Of a stretch of DNA of 64,000 nt, positions 401 to 9,424 are shown piece by piece (position 1 is the first letter of the stretch; the number at the start of each line of letters is the position of its first letter). This DNA is from Gammaproteobacteria bacterium (lineage in GTDB: Bacteria; Pseudomonadota; Gammaproteobacteria; Natronospirales; REEB76), in assembly GCA_035279405.1 (NCBI GenBank), contig DATEHU010000021.1:1-64000 (forward strand), in the 5' to 3' direction. The notes beneath the pieces are model-generated. The model made no database searches. It was not told the DNA's origin and was given only the letters and a program-made list of their open reading frames with translations. The position numbers and the translations under genes are program-made.

Positions 401-844
401 ATGAATACGAAACTTGTACTGAGCACAGTTTTGGCTTTGTCATTGCTAAGTGCCGGAGCCTACGCCAAGGATTACACCGTGAAAGAACTGAATGCCGGCA
501 CGGGAGGCACCTTCGTATTCGAACCGAACTTTCTGCACATTCAGCCCGGAGATTCAGTGCATTTCGTAGCCGCTGATGCCGGCCACGACAGCCAATCCTA
601 TCTGGTGCCTAAGGGCGCCCAGAGCTGGACCGGCGAAGTTAGTATGGACATCACAGTAAAGTTCACCCAGGAGGGCGTGTACCTGTATGAATGCAATCCG
701 CACCACATGTTTGGCATGCTCGGTGTTATCCAGGTGGGCAAGGCCATAAACAAAGCCACCGCCGAAAAGGCTGCGGCTGACATGGAAAAACAGCAAATCA
801 TGAACCAGGGCCGGCTGGAGGCCCTGATGAAGGAAATCCACTGA
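401..844 (+). CDS. Pseudoazurin-like periplasmic cupredoxin (type 1 copper protein)
   Basis: 147 residues. An N-terminal signal peptide (hydrophobic stretch about residues 4-20, cleavage probably after AYA22) sends it to the periplasm. The type 1 copper ligands are visible: His62 in GHDSQSY, then Cys98, His101 and Met106 in the ECNPHHMFGM stretch. The Cys-x2-His-x4-Met spacing is that of pseudoazurin. The family carries single electrons to nitrite, NO or oxygen reductases. An alanine/lysine-rich tail follows residue 115. The start at 401 is preferred because GGAGG lies 7 bases upstream and the signal peptide begins there; the frame is open further upstream. It lies on the same strand as the sNOR-like cluster 550 bases downstream, so it is a plausible donor to that CuA subunit (inference). 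Amicyanin or plastocyanin-like alternatives are possible. Confidence 0.85.
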   Translation: MNTKLVLSTVLALSLLSAGAYAKDYTVKELNAGTGGTFVFEPNFLHIQPGDSVHFVAADAGHDSQSYLVPKGAQSWTGEVSMDITVKFTQEGVYLYECNPHHMFGMLGVIQVGKAINKATAEKAAADMEKQQIMNQGRLEALMKEIH

Positions 845-1394
845 GATTAAGCCTGCGGACAGTCGGCGTGTGGGATTGCCTGGGACCCAGACGTGCCACA
901 GGGATCGCGCGGCATACCAGCGAAATCGAATATTCCCACGCCCCCGCAATTTGATTTGCATCTGTTGAACGCGACCAGCGTTGCAGACCGCCTCGGTTAA
1001 TACGCGCTGTTCACCGTGCACCATCGCCTGACGCAAGCGTGTTGCTGAATTGAACCCAAGCCTCCGTAAATCGCTGCAGGGCGTCGCGCTACAGTGGCTC
1101 AACCATGCAGCACATCCGCCCGCATAAGCTTCACTGTTGATTTTATTACGCAAGATTTAACCGGCTTGTGGTACATAAACTGTACTAATTTCTGGATCCG
1201 CCGGTGAAAACAAAATAGTTAGCGAGACTTTACGGGATTGCAATTTCACGTGTATCAAATATTTACACGTGTTTTGCCGGATGTTTCATTGGCACGCGTA
1301 ATTACACGCGTACTGTGCGCAAAAAATATCTTGACAATCGAATATGCACGGCGGAGATTACCACGCCGTAATTCATGCATCCTGGGGTAATGAC
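845..1394. other. Long intergenic region upstream of norS-like gene, with repeated CACGTG/CACGCG words
   Basis: No gene is recognisable in these 550 bases. The last 150 bases are A+T-richer and hold four similar words: CACGTG at 1247-1252 and 1266-1271, and CACGCG at 1293-1298 and 1305-1310. The last two extend to a direct repeat ACGCGTA (1294-1300, 1306-1312). A perfect TTGACA stands at 1331-1336, with only a weak partner (GAGATT, 1354-1359). If that promoter is real, the transcript would begin after the first possible ATG (1344), which agrees with the start at 1395. The repeated words look like regulator sites for the downstream cluster. Confidence 0.4.
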
Positions 1395-1949
1395 ATGATT
1401 AACGAGACCGATGTCTGGATTGATGCACTTGTCGGTATTGGGTTGGTCTCGCTGGGGTTCATCTACGTGATCATCCAGGCCGGCAAGTCCGCAGATGCGA
1501 AAGTCGCTGAACACATCCACAAGCATTCCAACGTGGTGCGCCGCTGGTTGTTTGCGCTGCTGCTGGTGATCTTTGTCGTGGGCAGTTTTATCACGCTCCG
1601 GCATTTCCCGATTCCGCCGCAACATGCACCGCTGGCCGCCAAGCAGGTCGTCAATGTGGTCGGCCACCAGTGGTCCTGGGAGTTGAGCACCACTCAGATC
1701 ACTGCCGGTGTTCCGGTTGAATTCCAAGTGACCAGCGCCGACGTCAATCACGGCTTTGCCATCTATGCGCCGAATGACCGCATCGTGGTGCAAACCCAGG
1801 CTATGCCAGGCTACACCAACAAGATTCTTTACACCTTCAAGCAGCCGGGTAACTACACAATCAACTGCCTCGAGTACTGCGGTCTCGGCCATCACGTGAT
1901 GACGGCCCAGCTGAATGTTGTCGCCCCCACCGGAGGACACACACCATGA
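1395..1949 (+). CDS. norS: CuA-containing subunit II of sNOR-type nitric oxide reductase / heme-copper oxidase
   Basis: 184 residues from the ATG at 1395, which has a GGGGT purine patch just upstream; an in-frame ATG at 1344 has none. Two N-terminal membrane segments (about residues 10-28 and 51-69) anchor a periplasmic cupredoxin domain. The CuA site is complete: His119 (VNHGF), then Cys158-x-Glu160-x-Cys162-x3-His166-x2-Met169. CuA takes electrons from a soluble cytochrome c or cupredoxin and passes them to subunit I. The stop overlaps the norY start (ATGA). In isolation this would be called cytochrome c oxidase subunit II. The norS name rests on gene order and on the missing tyrosine in subunit I. 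Whether the substrate is NO or oxygen is not proven by sequence. Confidence 0.8.
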   Translation: MINETDVWIDALVGIGLVSLGFIYVIIQAGKSADAKVAEHIHKHSNVVRRWLFALLLVIFVVGSFITLRHFPIPPQHAPLAAKQVVNVVGHQWSWELSTTQITAGVPVEFQVTSADVNHGFAIYAPNDRIVVQTQAMPGYTNKILYTFKQPGNYTINCLEYCGLGHHVMTAQLNVVAPTGGHTP

Positions 1950-3433
1950 GCTCACTGGAACTCTATCCCGCGGATGAAAAACTCCCGCGCAGCGAACGCA
2001 TAGTCTTTGACCTTTACATCATCACTGCGGTGGTGCTGTTCGTGCTGATGATGCTGCTGGGTCTGAGCATGCGCCTGACCCAAGCTACTTGGGCGGGTGT
2101 CGGCCCCAAGCTGTTCTACGAGATCCTTACCATGCATGGTGCTGGCATGGTGGGTACTACGGCACTGGCGACTGTTGCGGTCATGTGGTTTTTTCTGCGC
2201 AAGTACGTGAAGTTGCACTTGTGGGCGTTCCTGACCAACTACATGCTGTTCCTGTTGGGTGCGCTAGCCATCATCATCGCGATATTTGTCGGCGGCTATG
2301 CCGGCATGTGGACGTTCCTGTATCCCTTGCCGGTACATTCCGAGGGCATCTGGAGCAATAACGCCGCGGCATTGTTCTTTATCGGCTATCTGCTGATCGG
2401 CGTGGGTTTTCTGCTGTTTTACCTGGATGCCTCGGCGGGCATCATCCGCAAGTTCGGCAATTTTGGACGGGCGATGGGCCTGCAGTGGCTGTTCGGCGGG
2501 ACCATAGACCAGTCGCACCCCAAAACCGTGGTCGCCAGTACCATGGTAATCATCGCCAACTCCATCGGCATCCTGGCTGGCGCGGTGGTCCTGGTGATGT
2601 GCCTGATCAACGCCTATTTCCCCACCGTTGTGCTCAATGCTCTAGTGGTCAAGGAATTAATTTACTGGTTCGGCCACATGTTTATCAATGCGACCATTTA
2701 CATGGGCGTGATCGCCGTGTACGAGCTGCTGCCGCGTTATACCGGGCGTCCGTACACCATCAACCGGGTGTTTCTGTGGGCCTGGGCGGTCAGTTGTGTA
2801 TTCGTGATCGTGGTGTTCCCGCACCACCTGCTGATGGACTTCGCCCAACCCCGCTGGCTCGCGATTATCGGCCAGGTGGTTTCCTGGGGCGCTGGTTTCC
2901 CGGTGTTCCTGGTGACCGCTTACGGCGTACTCACCAATATTTACCGCTCGAACATACGCTGGAAAATGCCGTCCCGGCTAATGGTGCTGTCGGTGTTCGG
3001 TTGGGCCGCCGGCATCGTTCCGGCGATGCTTGACGGCACTATTGTGGTCAACAAGCTGATGCACAACACCCAGTGGGTACCGGGACACTTCCATTTCTAC
3101 ATCATATTGGGCGTGCTGCCCATGGCGCTCGCGACCATGTACCACGTGATCGGTAGCCGCGCACAATCGCCTGACGATGTCGGCGGCGATAAGCTGAGCA
3201 TTCCGCTTTTTTTGGTCGGCGGACTAACTTTCGTTCTGGCGTTCCTCTATGCCGGAGATCACAGCGTGCCGCGGCGTTATGCCGTGCATCTGCCACAGTG
3301 GTTGCCGTATGACAAGGCCGGCTCTATCGGCGCCATGCTGATTATCCTGGGGATGCTGTTATTTGCCGTGCGTATCATCGCCGGCCTGTTGAAGGTCCCT
3401 GCCGATGTCGGTTCTGCGCACCCTGGCGGTTAG
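1946..3433 (+). CDS. norY: Heme-copper oxidase superfamily catalytic subunit without active-site tyrosine; probable sNOR NorY
   Basis: 495 residues with about 12 membrane helices. The histidines of the superfamily are all present: His64 (LTMHGAGM) and His383 for low-spin heme, His381 for high-spin heme (both in VPGHFHF), and His244 and His293-His294 (FPHH) for the second active-site metal. The tyrosine that cross-links to the first metal-ligand histidine in A/B-type oxygen reductases should be four residues after His244, but Asn248 is there (HMFIN). The C-type position, six residues before the HH pair, is Val287. Loss of this tyrosine is a mark of nitric oxide reductases. The order CuA subunit, catalytic subunit, SenC, small membrane protein matches norSY-senC-orf1 of ammonia oxidisers. 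NO reduction is inferred; a divergent B-type oxidase is the alternative. Confidence 0.78.
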   Translation: MSSLELYPADEKLPRSERIVFDLYIITAVVLFVLMMLLGLSMRLTQATWAGVGPKLFYEILTMHGAGMVGTTALATVAVMWFFLRKYVKLHLWAFLTNYMLFLLGALAIIIAIFVGGYAGMWTFLYPLPVHSEGIWSNNAAALFFIGYLLIGVGFLLFYLDASAGIIRKFGNFGRAMGLQWLFGGTIDQSHPKTVVASTMVIIANSIGILAGAVVLVMCLINAYFPTVVLNALVVKELIYWFGHMFINATIYMGVIAVYELLPRYTGRPYTINRVFLWAWAVSCVFVIVVFPHHLLMDFAQPRWLAIIGQVVSWGAGFPVFLVTAYGVLTNIYRSNIRWKMPSRLMVLSVFGWAAGIVPAMLDGTIVVNKLMHNTQWVPGHFHFYIILGVLPMALATMYHVIGSRAQSPDDVGGDKLSIPLFLVGGLTFVLAFLYAGDHSVPRRYAVHLPQWLPYDKAGSIGAMLIILGMLLFAVRIIAGLLKVPADVGSAHPGG

Positions 3434-4025
3434 CGTCAGCCTGATCGTTCTCGGCCTCGTCACGCTGGCGATTGCCACTGACGATTTCCGTGCCTTCACC
3501 AGCGAGACCGCGCGCCGCATCGAAGTGCGTCAACATCCGCGCCCGCTGCCGCCGGTCACACTCGAGAGCCAGACCGGCGAGCGCTTCGATCTTGCCGGAC
3601 TGCGGGGTAAGTGGCTGGTAGTGGATTTCATCTATACCCGCTGCATGAGCCTGTGTTCAGTCTTGGGCGGCAAGTTCGTGCAGCTTCAGGACCAGTTGGC
3701 CACGCCCCTAGCGCAGAATCGGATACAACTGCTCAGCATCAGCTTTGACCCGGAACGCGACACGCCCGCGCAACTCGCCGATTATCTCTACCGCTTCAAC
3801 AACCACGGCACGGGCTGGTTGGCTGCGCGCCCGCTGAACGCGCAGGGACTCGACACGCTGAAACACGTCTTCGGCGTAACTGTAGTTCCCGACAATGCGG
3901 GCGGGTACGTGCACAACGACGCCATTGAAATCGTTGACCCGCAGGGCCGCCTGGTCAATATTCTCGACAGCGACACGCCGGCCAAATCCGTTGGCGAGAT
4001 CGTGTTGCGGTATCTGAACCGGTGA
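3405..4025 (+). CDS. senC: SCO1/SenC copper chaperone
   Basis: 206 residues: one N-terminal membrane anchor or signal (about residues 5-24), then a thioredoxin-like domain. The SCO metal site is intact, with Cys80-x3-Cys84 (TRCMSLCS) and a distal His170 (GGYVHND). SCO proteins deliver copper to, or reduce the cysteines of, the CuA centre, which fits the CuA subunit two genes upstream. The ATG at 3405 lies 29 bases inside the 3' end of norY, showing translational coupling. The stop overlaps the start of the next gene. The function is well supported by the family; the partner protein is inferred from context. Confidence 0.88.
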   Translation: MSVLRTLAVSVSLIVLGLVTLAIATDDFRAFTSETARRIEVRQHPRPLPPVTLESQTGERFDLAGLRGKWLVVDFIYTRCMSLCSVLGGKFVQLQDQLATPLAQNRIQLLSISFDPERDTPAQLADYLYRFNNHGTGWLAARPLNAQGLDTLKHVFGVTVVPDNAGGYVHNDAIEIVDPQGRLVNILDSDTPAKSVGEIVLRYLNR

Positions 4026-4666
4026 TGATCAGCGTCCGGCAGCGCTCGGTCCTGATTGCCGCGGTCATCTTTGTCGTCCTGCTGCTGCCGCCGGTCATCC
4101 ATGCCCTGCAGGCGCGCATGGCGATGCAGATGCTGGTGCAGATTCCGCTGCTGATCGCGGTGGGCTACTTGTTGCGCGCGGCCGTGCCGCAACGGCTGGC
4201 GACGGCGATCGCCGCCTGGAATCTCAACGGCATCAGCGGGATGCTGCTCGCAACCTTCGCCACCGCCTTCTGGATGCTGCCGCGCTCACTGGATGCCGCC
4301 GCGTCCGAACCGCTGTTCACACTCGCCAAGTTCGTCAGCGTACCGCTGTTGATCGGCTTGCCGATGGGGCTGAGCTGGCCGCGCATGAACTTCGTGGTGC
4401 GCGGGGTTTTCCTCATGGAACTCATCGCCATGTTCTTCCGCTTCGGCTGGCTGTACCTGATCTCGCCCGTCAGGCTGTGCAACAATTACCTGCTGGACGA
4501 CCAGCAGCGTACCGGCCAATTCATGCTGCTGATCGGCGCGACCATCCTCGTATGGGCCGCCTTCAAACTCCTGTGGGGACATTTCAATTGGTCGCCGGAC
4601 AGCCAGCGGATCGCATCGATCCCGGCGCGCTCCGCGCCCGATACTCATCGCCCGGCGGATCGCTGA
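4025..4666 (+). CDS. Polytopic membrane protein, counterpart of orf1 in norSY-senC-orf1
   Basis: 213 residues, with about six hydrophobic segments and no soluble domain. No catalytic motif was recognised. It starts at an ATG sharing one base with the senC stop; a GTG at 4022 is also possible. It is the last gene of the cluster. In the norSY-senC-orf1 arrangement the fourth gene is likewise a small multi-span membrane protein of unknown role. Maturation or assembly of the oxidoreductase is a reasonable guess but not shown by sequence. The next gene, bioD, is convergent, so the operon ends here. Confidence 0.7.
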   Translation: MISVRQRSVLIAAVIFVVLLLPPVIHALQARMAMQMLVQIPLLIAVGYLLRAAVPQRLATAIAAWNLNGISGMLLATFATAFWMLPRSLDAAASEPLFTLAKFVSVPLLIGLPMGLSWPRMNFVVRGVFLMELIAMFFRFGWLYLISPVRLCNNYLLDDQQRTGQFMLLIGATILVWAAFKLLWGHFNWSPDSQRIASIPARSAPDTHRPADR

Positions 4667-4705: not shown

Positions 4706-4732
4706 GAAAAAGACGTAAATGGAACGGCGTCT
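4706..4732 (-). terminator. Possible weak terminator after bioD
   Basis: Read on the minus strand, AGACG (4732-4728) can pair with CGTCT (4715-4711) across a 12-base loop and is followed by a run of T. The stem is only 5 base pairs and overlaps the bioD stop codon, so this is a tentative call. Confidence 0.3.
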
Positions 4733-5424
4733 CAGTCCGCATTCAAGAGGCCGAGGATTTTTCCGATATCGAAACCAGCCGCGCGTTCTTCAAGCGTGGA
4801 ACCGGGGCGCCAGGGGATATCGCCGACCGGCGGTGCGCTGAGGCTCTGCGCGAGAGTTGCCAGATTTTCCGCGCGCCGCTCGAAGCCGGGATCAATGCTG
4901 TTCGCCACCCAGCCGGCAAGCCGCAAGCCGTCCGCCTGAATGGCACGCGCGCTGAGCCGCGCATGGTTGAGGCAGCCCAGGCGCAAACCCACGACCAGGA
5001 TCACCGGCAAACCGAGAGCGCCCGCCAGCTCCGGAACACCCCAGGAATCGCCCAAGGGCACTTGCCAACCACCGACGCCTTCTACCACGACCGCGTCGGC
5101 GCCCTCGCATAGTTGCCGAAAACTTTCCAGGATTCTCGGCAATGCAATCGTCGCGCCGGTTTCGGCCGCCGCCAGGTGTGGCGCGATGGGCGGCACGAAC
5201 GCGTAGGGATTCACCAGCGCGTAAGGCCGCGGCAGACTCGCGGCGGCCTGCAATTGCAGTGCGTCGTGGTTGCGCAAACCGTCGGGCGTCGCCAGCGCGC
5301 CGCTAGCTACCGGTTTCATGCCCACGGTTTTCACGCCTTTGCGCGCCAGCGCGTGGAGCACGGCGGCGGCCACCCAGGTCTTGCCCACACCGGTATCGGT
5401 ACCGGTAATGAAAAAGCCGCGCAT
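4732..5424 (-). CDS. bioD: Dethiobiotin synthetase
   Basis: 230 residues. BioD closes the ureido ring of 7,8-diaminopelargonic acid to dethiobiotin using ATP and CO2, the step before BioB. The N-terminus MRGFFITGTDTGVGKT carries the BioD-type P-loop (Gly8-Thr16). Downstream, KPVASG and the VEGVGGW segment (substrate and magnesium side) are conserved. It is the last gene of the minus-strand bioBFHCD operon; its ATG abuts the bioC stop, sharing base 5424. Length is usual for the family. BioA, which makes its substrate, is not in this window. Confidence 0.95.
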   Translation of the reverse strand: MRGFFITGTDTGVGKTWVAAAVLHALARKGVKTVGMKPVASGALATPDGLRNHDALQLQAAASLPRPYALVNPYAFVPPIAPHLAAAETGATIALPRILESFRQLCEGADAVVVEGVGGWQVPLGDSWGVPELAGALGLPVILVVGLRLGCLNHARLSARAIQADGLRLAGWVANSIDPGFERRAENLATLAQSLSAPPVGDIPWRPGSTLEERAAGFDIGKILGLLNAD

Positions 5425-6293
5425 CAGCGTTCGGCCCCGTGCGCGTGCAGCACGGCATCGCGCTCGGCCGGGGTGAGCATGCCGGCGGGCAGGTACGCCG
5501 GCGTCCAGGCCGTGCCATAGACGACTTCATAGGTCGCCGGCAAACGCCCGTCGCGCCGGAAGCGCTCGTACGCCGCAGTCAGTTGCGCCGCGCGCCGTCG
5601 CCCACCGAGGCCGCGCGGCCGGCCAGCCGTGACATTGTGTGCGCCGATGGCTTTCAGATCCTGCGCGAGCGCCTGCACGTTGGCATAGGTGAGCGTCAGT
5701 TGCTCTACGTCCATCACCGGCTCGACAAAGCCGGCGCGTATCAATGCGTCGCCGACATCGTGCATGTCAATGAAGCGGTTCACGTGGTTGAGACCGTCCA
5801 CTTCGCGCCACGCGCTGCGCAACTCCTTCAACGTATCGGGTCCAAAGCTGCTGAACAGCAGCAGTGCGTGCGGCGCGAGCGTGCGCCGCAACTCCACCAG
5901 TGCCTGATCGAGATCGTCGCACCATTGCAGCACCAGGTTGCAGTAAATGAAATCAAAACTTCCCGCCCTGAACGGCAGATGCAACGCATCCGCGCAGGTC
6001 AGCGGCACGCGTCGCCAAAAGCCCAGCCGGCGGCGCGCCGCCAGCAGCATGTTGAAGGCGAAATCCACGGCCACCAACCGCGCACGCGGATAACGCCGGC
6101 GCAGCTCGGGCAGATTGCGCCCGGTGCCGCAACCCAGGTCCAGCACGCGCGCCGGCTGGATCGCGGTCAGCTCCAGGCGTTCCAGCAGGCGCCGGGCGAC
6201 TTCCTGCTGCAGCGCGGCGGCCGCATCGTAGCCGCGGGCCGCACGCTCGAAAGCCGCGCGCAGCTGTTGCCGGTCGAGCGAAAACTCATCCAT
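5424..6293 (-). CDS. bioC: Malonyl-ACP O-methyltransferase
   Basis: 289 residues from the ATG at 6293. BioC methylates malonyl-ACP with S-adenosylmethionine so that fatty acid synthesis can build the pimelate chain of biotin. The SAM-binding motif is VLDLGCGTG at residues 50-58, after the usual N-terminal 'F..AA..YD..A..Q' segment. The frame is open upstream of 6293, but family alignment and the 8-base overlap with the bioH stop support this start. Its partner BioH, which removes the methyl group, is the preceding gene. Confidence 0.92.
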   Translation of the reverse strand: MDEFSLDRQQLRAAFERAARGYDAAAALQQEVARRLLERLELTAIQPARVLDLGCGTGRNLPELRRRYPRARLVAVDFAFNMLLAARRRLGFWRRVPLTCADALHLPFRAGSFDFIYCNLVLQWCDDLDQALVELRRTLAPHALLLFSSFGPDTLKELRSAWREVDGLNHVNRFIDMHDVGDALIRAGFVEPVMDVEQLTLTYANVQALAQDLKAIGAHNVTAGRPRGLGGRRRAAQLTAAYERFRRDGRLPATYEVVYGTAWTPAYLPAGMLTPAERDAVLHAHGAER

Positions 6294-7110
6294 GCGGCGA
6301 TGCTCCGTGGGCTGATGCCGGAGCAGCCGTGGCATGCAGCGGCGCGAGGAAATCCCGCACGGCCGCGAGGAATTCCCGCGGATGCGACACAAACGGCGCG
6401 TGCGCGGCTTTTGGGACACTGAACAGGCGCCCACCGGAAATCGCATGCGCCAGCCAAGCGCCGGCTGCGGGCGGGACCACGCGGTCGTACTCGCCGGTCA
6501 TTACCAAAGTGGGCTGTGCCAGGCGCGGCACAGCGGCACGCAAGTCGCTGCTGCGCAGGATTTCGAGACCCGCCGCCAGACTCTGCGCATCGGGCTCGAC
6601 ACAGACGGACAGGCTGGCACTCAACTGCCGCAAGCTGGTGCGCGCATGCTCGCTGCCCTGCACCTGCAAGGCGAGAAACCGGTGCACCGTACCGCGGTAA
6701 TCGCGTGCAAGTTCGCGGCTGAAGTCCGCCAGTTGCTCCGGCGCCATCGCGCAGTCCCAGTCCGGCGCCGTCACGAAACGCGGCGTGCTGCTGGTGAGGA
6801 TCAACGCGCGCACGCGTTGTGGGAAATCCAGCGCCGCCTGCTGCGCCACGAGTCCGCCCAGTGACCAGCCGAGCCACACGGCGTTTTGCGGCGCCGCATG
6901 CACGACCAGCTCTGCGAGCGCCGACAACGTTGCCGGCATCGGCACCACGCGGCTGCGGCCATGGCCTGGAAGATCCACACGCGTAACGCGCCAGTCGCGC
7001 GCCAGTTCGGGCACCAGGCTGTCCCACACGCCACCGTGCAGCGCCCAGCCGTGGACCAGGAACAGATCCAAACCCTGGCCGAGGGTTTCAGTGTGCAGGG
7101 TCGGAGACAT
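6286..7110 (-). CDS. bioH: Pimeloyl-ACP methyl ester carboxylesterase
   Basis: 274 residues, alpha/beta hydrolase fold. BioH hydrolyses pimeloyl-ACP methyl ester, ending chain extension and giving pimeloyl-ACP to BioF. Visible features are the oxyanion segment LVHGWALHGGVW, nucleophile Ser83 in GWSLGG, the acid in GEYDRVV, and the base histidine in KAAHAPF. ATG 7110 is chosen because the BioH pattern begins at once after it; an in-frame TTG at 7137 would add nine unmatched residues. It overlaps bioC by 8 bases and starts 33 bases after the bioF stop. Confidence 0.92.
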   Translation of the reverse strand: MSPTLHTETLGQGLDLFLVHGWALHGGVWDSLVPELARDWRVTRVDLPGHGRSRVVPMPATLSALAELVVHAAPQNAVWLGWSLGGLVAQQAALDFPQRVRALILTSSTPRFVTAPDWDCAMAPEQLADFSRELARDYRGTVHRFLALQVQGSEHARTSLRQLSASLSVCVEPDAQSLAAGLEILRSSDLRAAVPRLAQPTLVMTGEYDRVVPPAAGAWLAHAISGGRLFSVPKAAHAPFVSHPREFLAAVRDFLAPLHATAAPASAHGASPHG

Positions 7111-7143
7111 GGATGGGGTGCTGAACGCGGCGTGCAAGAAAAT

Positions 7144-8328
7144 CTACCGGCTTACGGATCGCATCACTTGCGCCAAGGCGTCAAGCAATTGATCCACCTG
7201 CGCATCGCTGTGTGCGGCGGTCAGCGTCAGGCGCAGGCGCGCGCTGCCGGCCGGAACCGTGGGCGGGCGGATGGCGACGGCCAGAATCCCGCGCGCCGCA
7301 AGCGCGTCGGAAATCGTGAGCGCCCGCGCGGCATCGCCGATCATGAGCGGCTGGATGGCGGTGCGTGACTCCAGCAACGGCAGGTCAAGGGCGGCGGCAC
7401 CCGCGCGGAAACGCGCAATCAGCGCGTGCAATTTCTCGCGCCGCCAGCTTTCGGTGCGCAGAAGCCTGAGTGCAGCGCGCGTGGCTTCCGCCCAGGCCGC
7501 CGGGGACGCGGTTGTATATATATAGGTACGCGCGTGCTGGATGAGTGTCTCGATCAACGCCTCGCTGCCCGCCACAAAGGCGCCGAACGTGCCCAGGGCC
7601 TTGCCGAGCGTCGCCATCAATACCGGCACTGCATCCCTGCCCAGCCCGAAGTGCTCCAGTGCGCCGCGGCCATTCGCACCCAACACACCGAGGCCGTGTG
7701 CATCATCCACCATCAGAATGGCCTGCGCCGGCCCGCATTCCCGCGCCAAATCCGGCAAGGGTGCGAGATCGCCATCCATGCTGAATACCGAGTCGGTCAT
7801 GACCAGCGTGCGGCGCGCAGTCGTCGTCAGGCGCCGCTGCAGTGCATCGGTATCGGCATGCACATAGCGCACGAAACGCGCGCCGCTGAGCAAGCCCGCG
7901 TCCAGCAGTGAGGCATGGTTCAGCCGGTCCTCGACTACGAGGTCTCCGCGTTTCACCAATGCACCCGCAATCCCGAGATTCGCGAGGTAGCCGCTGGAAA
8001 ACAGCAGGGCTCGCGGACGCTGCACGAATTCCGCGAGTTCCTCTTCGAGCGCGTGGTGCGCGCGCGTGTGCCCGGTCACCAGATGTGCGGCGCCGCTGCC
8101 TGTGCCGTACTGGTCGAGCCCGCGGCGCGCGGCGTCCGCCAGCGCCGGATGTGCAGCCAAGCCGAGGTAGTCGTTGCTGGAGAAATTCAGCAGCCGCCGG
8201 CCGTTGACCGCAATCTCCGCGCCCTGTGGCCCTTCGACAATACGCCGGCGGCGGTACAGCGATCGGGCGGTGAGCGACTCCAGCTCCGCGCAGAGCGCGT
8301 GGTCAAGTCGCTGCGCGGCTTTGGGCAT
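7144..8328 (-). CDS. bioF: 8-amino-7-oxononanoate synthase
   Basis: 394 residues. BioF is a PLP enzyme that condenses pimeloyl-ACP (or -CoA) with alanine to give 8-amino-7-oxononanoate. The PLP lysine is Lys243 in [11 protein letters not shown]. Upstream are the [10 protein letters not shown] entry motif, [10 protein letters not shown], and [11 protein letters not shown] with the PLP-ring aspartate. Full family length. Its ATG lies 26 bases inside the 3' end of bioB, so the two are translationally coupled. Confidence 0.95.
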
Positions 8329-9337
8329 GTGAGGCGTCGGCCGCGGCGCGCCGTGCGCTCACGCCGGCATGCGGTTCCGCGTGGATGCCGAGACGCGCAA
8401 GCAGTTGGCGATCGTGATCCTGTTCGGGATTCCCGGTGGTCAACAGCTTGTCGCCGTAGAAAATCGAATTCGCGCCGGCGAAAAACGCCAGAGCCTGCAG
8501 CTCGTCGCTCATCTGGGCGCGGCCCGCAGAGAGGCGCACGTGCGAGCGCGGCATGAGGATGCGCGCCACGGCAATCACACGCACGAAATCCAGGGGATCG
8601 ACTGGCGCCGCGTGATCCAGCGGCGTGCCCGGCACCCGCACCAGCTGGTTGATGGGGACACTCTCCGGATGTTCAGGCAGGCTTGCGAGCGTGTGCAGCA
8701 TCTTGGCGCGATCGGTGACGCTTTCGCCCATGCCGATGATGCCGCCGCAGCACACGCGCATGCCGGCCGCACGCACCGCTTCGAGCGTGTCGAGACGATC
8801 TTGAAATGTACGGGTGCGGATAATCTCGGCATAAAACTCCTCGGACGTGTCGATATTGTGGTTGTAGTAATCGAGTCCGGCCTCCGCGAGCCGCTGCGCC
8901 TGTTGCGGCGTCAGCATGCCGAGCGTCGCACAGGTCTCCATGCCCAACGCGCGCACCTGCTTCACCATGTCAATGATCTGGTCCAGATCCTTGTCCCTGG
9001 GTGAGCGGTAAGCGGCGCCCATACAGAAGCGCGTGGCGCCGCTCGCATGCGCGCGCTTGGCCTGCACCACGACGTCTTCGACGTGCATGAGCTTCTCGGC
9101 CTTGAGGCCGGTGTGGTAGCGGGCGCTCTGCGGACAATAGGCGCAATCCTCCGGGCAGGCGCCGGTCTTAATGGACAGCAGCGTCGAAATCTGCACGCTG
9201 TTGGGGTCGAAGTGCCGGCGGTAAACCGAATGCGCGCGATACAGCAGGTCGTTGAACGGCAGTGTAAACAGGGTCTGCACTTCGGCGAGCGTCCAGTCGT
9301 GGCGCAAGTCGTTGTCGGCGGCCGTCAGGGAAGACAT
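8303..9337 (-). CDS. bioB: Biotin synthase (radical SAM)
   Basis: 344 residues from the ATG at 9337. BioB inserts sulfur into dethiobiotin using a radical SAM [4Fe-4S] cluster and a [2Fe-2S] sulfur donor. The cluster motif is Cys61-x3-Cys65-x2-Cys68 ([13 protein letters not shown]). Other BioB signatures are [20 protein letters not shown] and the final [10 protein letters not shown]. First gene of the bio operon, with a recognisable promoter and BirA-like operator upstream. The frame is open 29 codons further upstream, but those residues do not match the family. Confidence 0.96.
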
Positions 9338-9396
9338 GGTGAGCCTCGGCTGGGCGTGGCATGATGCTGCGGCAGCGCGCCGCAACGGATGCACGC

Positions 9397-9424
9397 AGTG
9401 TAGCGACGCACAATCGGCTGTCAA
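9397..9424 (-). promoter_or_regulatory. Sigma-70 promoter of the bio operon
   Basis: Reading the minus strand: a perfect -35 TTGACA (9424-9419), a 16-base spacer, and -10 TACACT (9402-9397). It lies 60 bases upstream of the bioB ATG and points at it. The -35 overlaps the left half of a BirA-like operator, which fits repression by biotin-loaded BirA. Confidence 0.6.

Follow-up and report, generated by a model that had tools for sequence, protein, structure and literature searches.

Haem-copper oxygen reductases use a cross-linked histidine-tyrosine (His-Tyr) pair to split O2. Several relatives lack this tyrosine, the closest to the locus considered here being the sNOR of ammonia oxidisers, which is encoded by the published norSY-senC-orf1 cluster (for example Nitrosomonas europaea NE0683-86) and combines a CuA subunit II with a B-like subunit I that carries asparagine (Asn) in place of Tyr (PMC4940428). 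The ‘type II qCuANOR’ of Bacillus azotoformans (cbaB2-cbaA2-senC2-cbaC2) shares, by description, a 12-helix subunit I, a subunit II with two transmembrane (TM) segments, SenC, a protein with 4-5 TM and the exchange of Tyr for Asn, but is Gram-positive in origin and putatively linked to menaquinol/cytochrome c (PMC3475470). The same species has bNOR (qCuANOR type I), which likewise has a CuA subunit and Asn for the cross-linked Tyr, and for which nitric oxide (NO) reductase activity of the purified enzyme is on record (PMC3475470, PMC11388526). A norSY-senC-orf1 cluster is found at positions 1395-4666 (plus strand) of a window of 64,000 nucleotides, the whole stretch of DNA analysed, which is the start of contig C21 (DATEHU010000021.1) in a gammaproteobacterial genome of 2.46 Mb that is 97.6% complete. 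A sequence-only reading had placed four genes there, and both coordinates and content were borne out by the open reading frames and by Pfam matches (COX2, COX1 and SCO1-SenC); the genes overlap by 4 to 29 bases (Table 1).

The cluster is a new member of the sNOR family in a non-nitrifier, the family itself being already known. Membership is close to certain because the signature residue, the type of subunit II, the gene order and the placement in a tree all fit. The catalytic subunit, NorY, was examined in an alignment of 61 NorY homologues, the most distant with 33–37% identity (L132 and Thermomicrobium roseum), together with A-, B- and C-type oxidase, cNOR/qNOR and eNOR-like references. His64, His244, His293, His294, His381 and His383 are invariant (61/61) and align with the haem and CuB histidines of every reference oxidase, with no CuB histidine exchanged for Asp. 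At position 248 in helix VI, the site of the cross-linked Tyr, all 61 NorY rows have Asn, whereas 11/11 A/B oxidases have Tyr; the other references hold Gly (C-type), Glu (cNOR/qNOR) or Gln (eNOR-like, L152 and L153), Gln at this position being a feature of eNOR. The Tyr of C-type enzymes is in helix VII, six residues ahead of the His-His pair, and at this position (287) Val is found in 60 NorY rows, that of the host included, and Ile in L132. The alignment thus upholds the earlier claims that all haem and metal histidines are kept, that Asn248 occupies the cross-linked Tyr site and that Val287 occupies the C-type one.

A profile of 20 NorY sequences searched against Protein Data Bank (PDB) chains gave the ba3 oxidase of Thermus thermophilus as the best match (E 2.6e-16 to 1e-13), with Asn248 placed on the Tyr of its ‘GHPIVY’ motif. 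The two enzymes share CuA, the haem-CuB ligands and the K-channel residues Tyr248 and Thr312 of ba3 (Tyr259 and Thr324 in NorY), and they differ at the cross-linked Tyr237 of ba3 (Asn248 in NorY) and at its Tyr244 (Val255 in NorY). In NorS, the CuA ligands H119, C158, E160, C162, H166 and M169 (numbered from the start at 1395; an alternative in-frame ATG lies at 1344) are kept in 50–51 of 51 aligned rows. An AlphaFold model of NorY has the haem-copper oxidase (HCO) fold with 12 TM helices (pLDDT 79.9, pTM 0.85). A fold search with this model cannot settle the HCO subclass, because A-type PDB chains came out on top (Z ~35, 16–17% identity) and families outside the list are not excluded.

In a maximum-likelihood tree of 86 rows (LG+C20), in which sNOR of ammonia oxidisers is represented by L141 and L142 from two amoA-bearing genomes and not by named Nitrosomonas sequences, NorY forms a single clade with 100/100 support, apart from the A, B, C, cNOR/qNOR and eNOR-like rows. 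L141 and L142 fall in different parts of this clade and are ~49% identical to the host NorY, which groups with sequences from Betaproteobacteria (Castellaniella, Allopusillimonas), Steroidobacteraceae and unclassified Gammaproteobacteria. The B-type references group with the eNOR-like rows in a clade of their own, to which NorY is linked at weak support (86/31), and therefore no descent of NorY from B-type enzymes is claimed. A position inside the proven oxygen reductases with a Tyr supplied from another helix, the outcome named beforehand as refuting an sNOR assignment, was not seen: the tree sets NorY apart and the C-type Tyr site holds Val. The eNOR-like rows L152 (G063:C33) and L153 (G057:C8) are subunit I proteins with a GHSxQQ motif, and both of their genomes also carry sNOR.

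The order norS-norY-senC-orf1 occurs in 44 of 51 loci, and in L141 and L142 as well. Of the seven exceptions, five lie on short contigs or at contig ends and two (L052 and L058) lack only a detectable Orf1. On a plasmid of Thermomicrobium roseum (L134), a deep-branching NorY with 37% identity has no SenC or Orf1 directly after it; genes near it encode a formate/nitrite transporter and an assembly protein for cytochrome oxidase. Orf1 has no family match in Pfam or NCBIfam, and one orf1, from an amoA-bearing genome, gives a weak match to DUF1404. The gene order had been equated with the sNOR cluster ‘known from ammonia oxidisers’. The same cluster does occur there, but the description proved too narrow, since most relatives are not known ammonia oxidisers and the host genome lacks detectable ammonia monooxygenase (AMO) in a search that, as positive control, found AMO in 12 of 399 Burkholderiales. 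The host locus also differs from ammonia-oxidiser sNOR in belonging to the subclade of Beta- and Gammaproteobacteria described above.

Although sNOR is counted as an NO reductase (NOR) in recent databases and exists as a hidden Markov model class in current ones (PMC11707229, PMC12569097), automatic annotation names it a cytochrome oxidase, so that N2O-emitting partial denitrifiers can be missed. The label expected from standard pipelines was ba3-type oxidase, and this detail was off: the name that relatives carry in RefSeq is ‘cbb3-type cytochrome c oxidase subunit I’, and KEGG assigns sNOR to coxA (PMC11388526).

The main function of NorSY is probably NO reduction, with a probability of about 0.76. 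This function is favoured because the Tyr is lost, relatives show NO-type regulation, the host has a NirK island and bNOR carries the same Asn; no report of a purified and assayed sNOR was found in the literature. In the proposed mechanism, electrons would most likely pass from pseudoazurin or cytochrome c to the CuA of NorS, then to the low-spin haem (His64/His383) and on to the haem-CuB centre (His381; His244, His293, His294), where a site without the cross-linked His-Tyr would most likely convert 2 NO to N2O. SenC would probably load copper as a CuA metallochaperone, and Orf1 would probably assist assembly, as a possible third subunit or assembly factor.

The full-length HCOs of the host genome are an aa3 oxidase (L001), a divergent C-type oxidase (L002) and NorY only. 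No cNOR/qNOR was found with a model that scores such proteins well above its cut-off in other genomes, and no NOR other than NorSY was detected in the host genome. Outside the window, a 13 kb island (L164, G000:C26:298500-311500) carries a NirK fusion, a CopD-like protein, a hemerythrin, a Crp/Fnr regulator, a pseudoazurin, a C-type oxidase and NnrS, as well as two perfect Fnr/Dnr boxes (TTGAT-N4-ATCAA). The 698-aa NirK is a fusion of a DoxX-like TM part, NirK and cytochrome c that retains the catalytic Asp and His as well as every type 1 and type 2 Cu ligand; no NirS was found in the genome. Because of this island the host cell probably makes NO, and the likely role of NorSY would be to clear NO produced by the membrane-anchored NirK, in partial denitrification or in NO detoxification at low oxygen. 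With sNOR as its sole detected NOR and a NirK island, the host offers a cleaner test of NO against O2 as substrate than do ammonia oxidisers with an additional cNOR. Long NirK-like reading frames similar to the host fusion were also seen in three other genomes (G002, G058 and G060). The divergent C-type oxidase L002 (G000:C26:306866-308092) adjoins NirK, with a CcoO-cytochrome c fusion, and shares with L148 the replacement of YGH before the CuB histidine by FMH or YMH.

Neighbouring genes were counted around 63 NorY loci, as rates without a control set of other HCO clusters. An Rrf2 regulator of NsrR-like type lies near norS in 30 of the loci, in Alpha- and Gammaproteobacteria; for the four such proteins tested NsrR was the best NCBIfam model, with scores under its cut-off, and three cysteines are conserved in the members. 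NsrR-type palindromes occur upstream of norS in L026 and L007, and in Nitrosococcus oceani the NsrR gene Noc2967 stands beside the sNOR genes Noc2969-2971 (PMC3772326). A formate/nitrite transporter is found downstream in 22/63 loci, as in the distant Thermomicrobium. These regulators and transporters beside sNOR likewise sharpen the test of NO against O2. A truncated haemoglobin is nearby in 12/63 loci and cbb3 genes in 20/63, the cluster of marine alphaproteobacteria often being located next to the latter.

Several observations weigh against NO reduction as the main function. The substrate is disputed for sNOR as a whole: the family has been proposed to be a high-affinity oxidase, as it lacks the NorB glutamates and as its expression in Nitrosomonas europaea rose 2.7- to 10.8-fold when O2 was limiting, with no significant change in cNOR (PMC6967387). 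To these are added the neighbouring cbb3 genes, the partial retention of the ba3 K-channel residues (Tyr259 and Thr324) and the absence of any NsrR in the host genome at E <= 1e-10. NirK was weakly enriched with NorY in a class sample (4/14 against 44/355), which is not significant (p = 0.094), and this co-occurrence was dropped as a statistical argument; among 42 NorY genomes, a strong match to NirK or NirS is present in 21 and missing from the other 21.

The strongest competitor, which is nevertheless unlikely, is that NorSY is a high-affinity B-like terminal oxygen reductase able to dispense with the usual His-Tyr cross-link, Tyr252 perhaps acting as electron and proton donor. It would account for the induction under O2 limitation, the intact CuA and CuB ligands, the K-channel equivalents, the invariance of Tyr252 and the proximity of cbb3 genes, but NorY lacks Tyr both at 248, where all A/B references have it, and at 287, where all C-type enzymes do. 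Tyr252 is on the same helix as the CuB ligand His244 and, by sequence geometry, ~two helical turns from it with Asn248 in between; the NsrR-like and nitrite-transporter neighbours indicate NO, and the host is already equipped with aa3 and C-type oxidases. In its specific form, with the invariant Tyr252 serving as a new kind of donor, this proposal is improbable; if it were true, a cross-linked tyrosine could no longer be regarded as a requirement of every haem-copper oxygen reductase.

A dual NO and O2 reductase whose chief task, in place of denitrification, is to shield the respiratory chain against NO in oxic or microoxic cells has a similarly slim chance. Such a role would suit the half of NorY genomes without strong NirK or NirS matches and the presence of truncated haemoglobin and cbb3 among the neighbours; in the host, the nitrite-to-NO island makes a plain denitrification step sufficient.

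Another NOR class (bNOR, eNOR, gNOR or cNOR/qNOR) is very improbable: bNOR also has the Asn, but by description a longer subunit I and a single TM in subunit II (PMC3475470), whereas the 495 aa and 12 helices of NorY and the two TM of NorS match the shorter ‘type II’ enzyme, position 248 is Gln in eNOR-like proteins and Glu in cNOR/qNOR, whose NorB presumably catalyses the same reaction with FeB, no CuB histidine has become Asp, and the tree separates these groups from NorY.

Upstream of norS, a perfect inverted repeat is, on sequence grounds, a possible operator (Table 1). A second, similar repeat lies ~45 bp downstream of the first, both within 1247-1312 and with half-sites TACACG(T/C)G. The pattern CACGYGTA-N(3-10)-TACACGYG occurs once in the 2.46 Mb genome, the longer repeat type being unique there, and is not conserved upstream of norS in relatives; the repeat was accordingly rejected as the operator of a regulon. 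Dnr/Fnr boxes upstream of norS are limited to sites with two mismatches, of which ~0.5 would be expected by chance.

Table 1. Features of the norSY-senC-orf1 region, with positions in the window
Feature	Position	Strand	Evidence or remark
pseudoazurin gene	401..844	+	TIGR02375, 110.2 bits, barely above cut-off
perfect inverted repeat CACGTGTA-N9-TACACGTG	1247..1271	.	upstream of norS; possible operator
norS, subunit II	1395..1949	+	COX2 (Pfam); CuA domain; two TM helices at the N terminus
norY, catalytic haem-copper subunit I with 12 helices in 495 aa	1946..3433	+	COX1, 159.8 bits (Pfam)
codons His244 (CuB ligand) to Asn248	2675..2689	+	GHxxxN replacing oxidase GHPxxY
Tyr252 codon	2699..2701	+	invariant in 61/61 NorY; A/B oxidases have Leu/Met/Ile
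senC, Sco/SenC protein	3405..4025	+	SCO1-SenC, 64 bits (Pfam); one TM helix
orf1, membrane protein, ~5 TM	4022..4666	+	position after senC

The pseudoazurin encoded upstream of norS is a candidate electron donor and is 74% identical (BLASTP) to the second pseudoazurin of the same genome, at the NirK/C-type oxidase island. It was rejected as a constant component of the cluster: such a gene lies close to norS in L044 and L052, whereas none was found there in L011 from the same genus. Directly after orf1, on the minus strand (window 4732-9424), lie apparent biotin-synthesis genes (bioD, bioC, bioH-like, bioF and bioB), and homologues of the biotin genes also lie downstream of the cluster in L011.

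There are hints that the norSY cluster was gained horizontally, given the presence of NorY in 2 of 11 genomes searched in the genus (host included) and the low G+C of the window's opening 4 kb (0.56), nearly all of the remaining window being higher, mostly 0.60–0.66. Further along the same contig, L004 (G000:C21:68772-69014) is a 145-aa protein with a single module, whose resemblance to COX1 is confined to the C-terminal third of the latter (21–22 bits, below cut-off).

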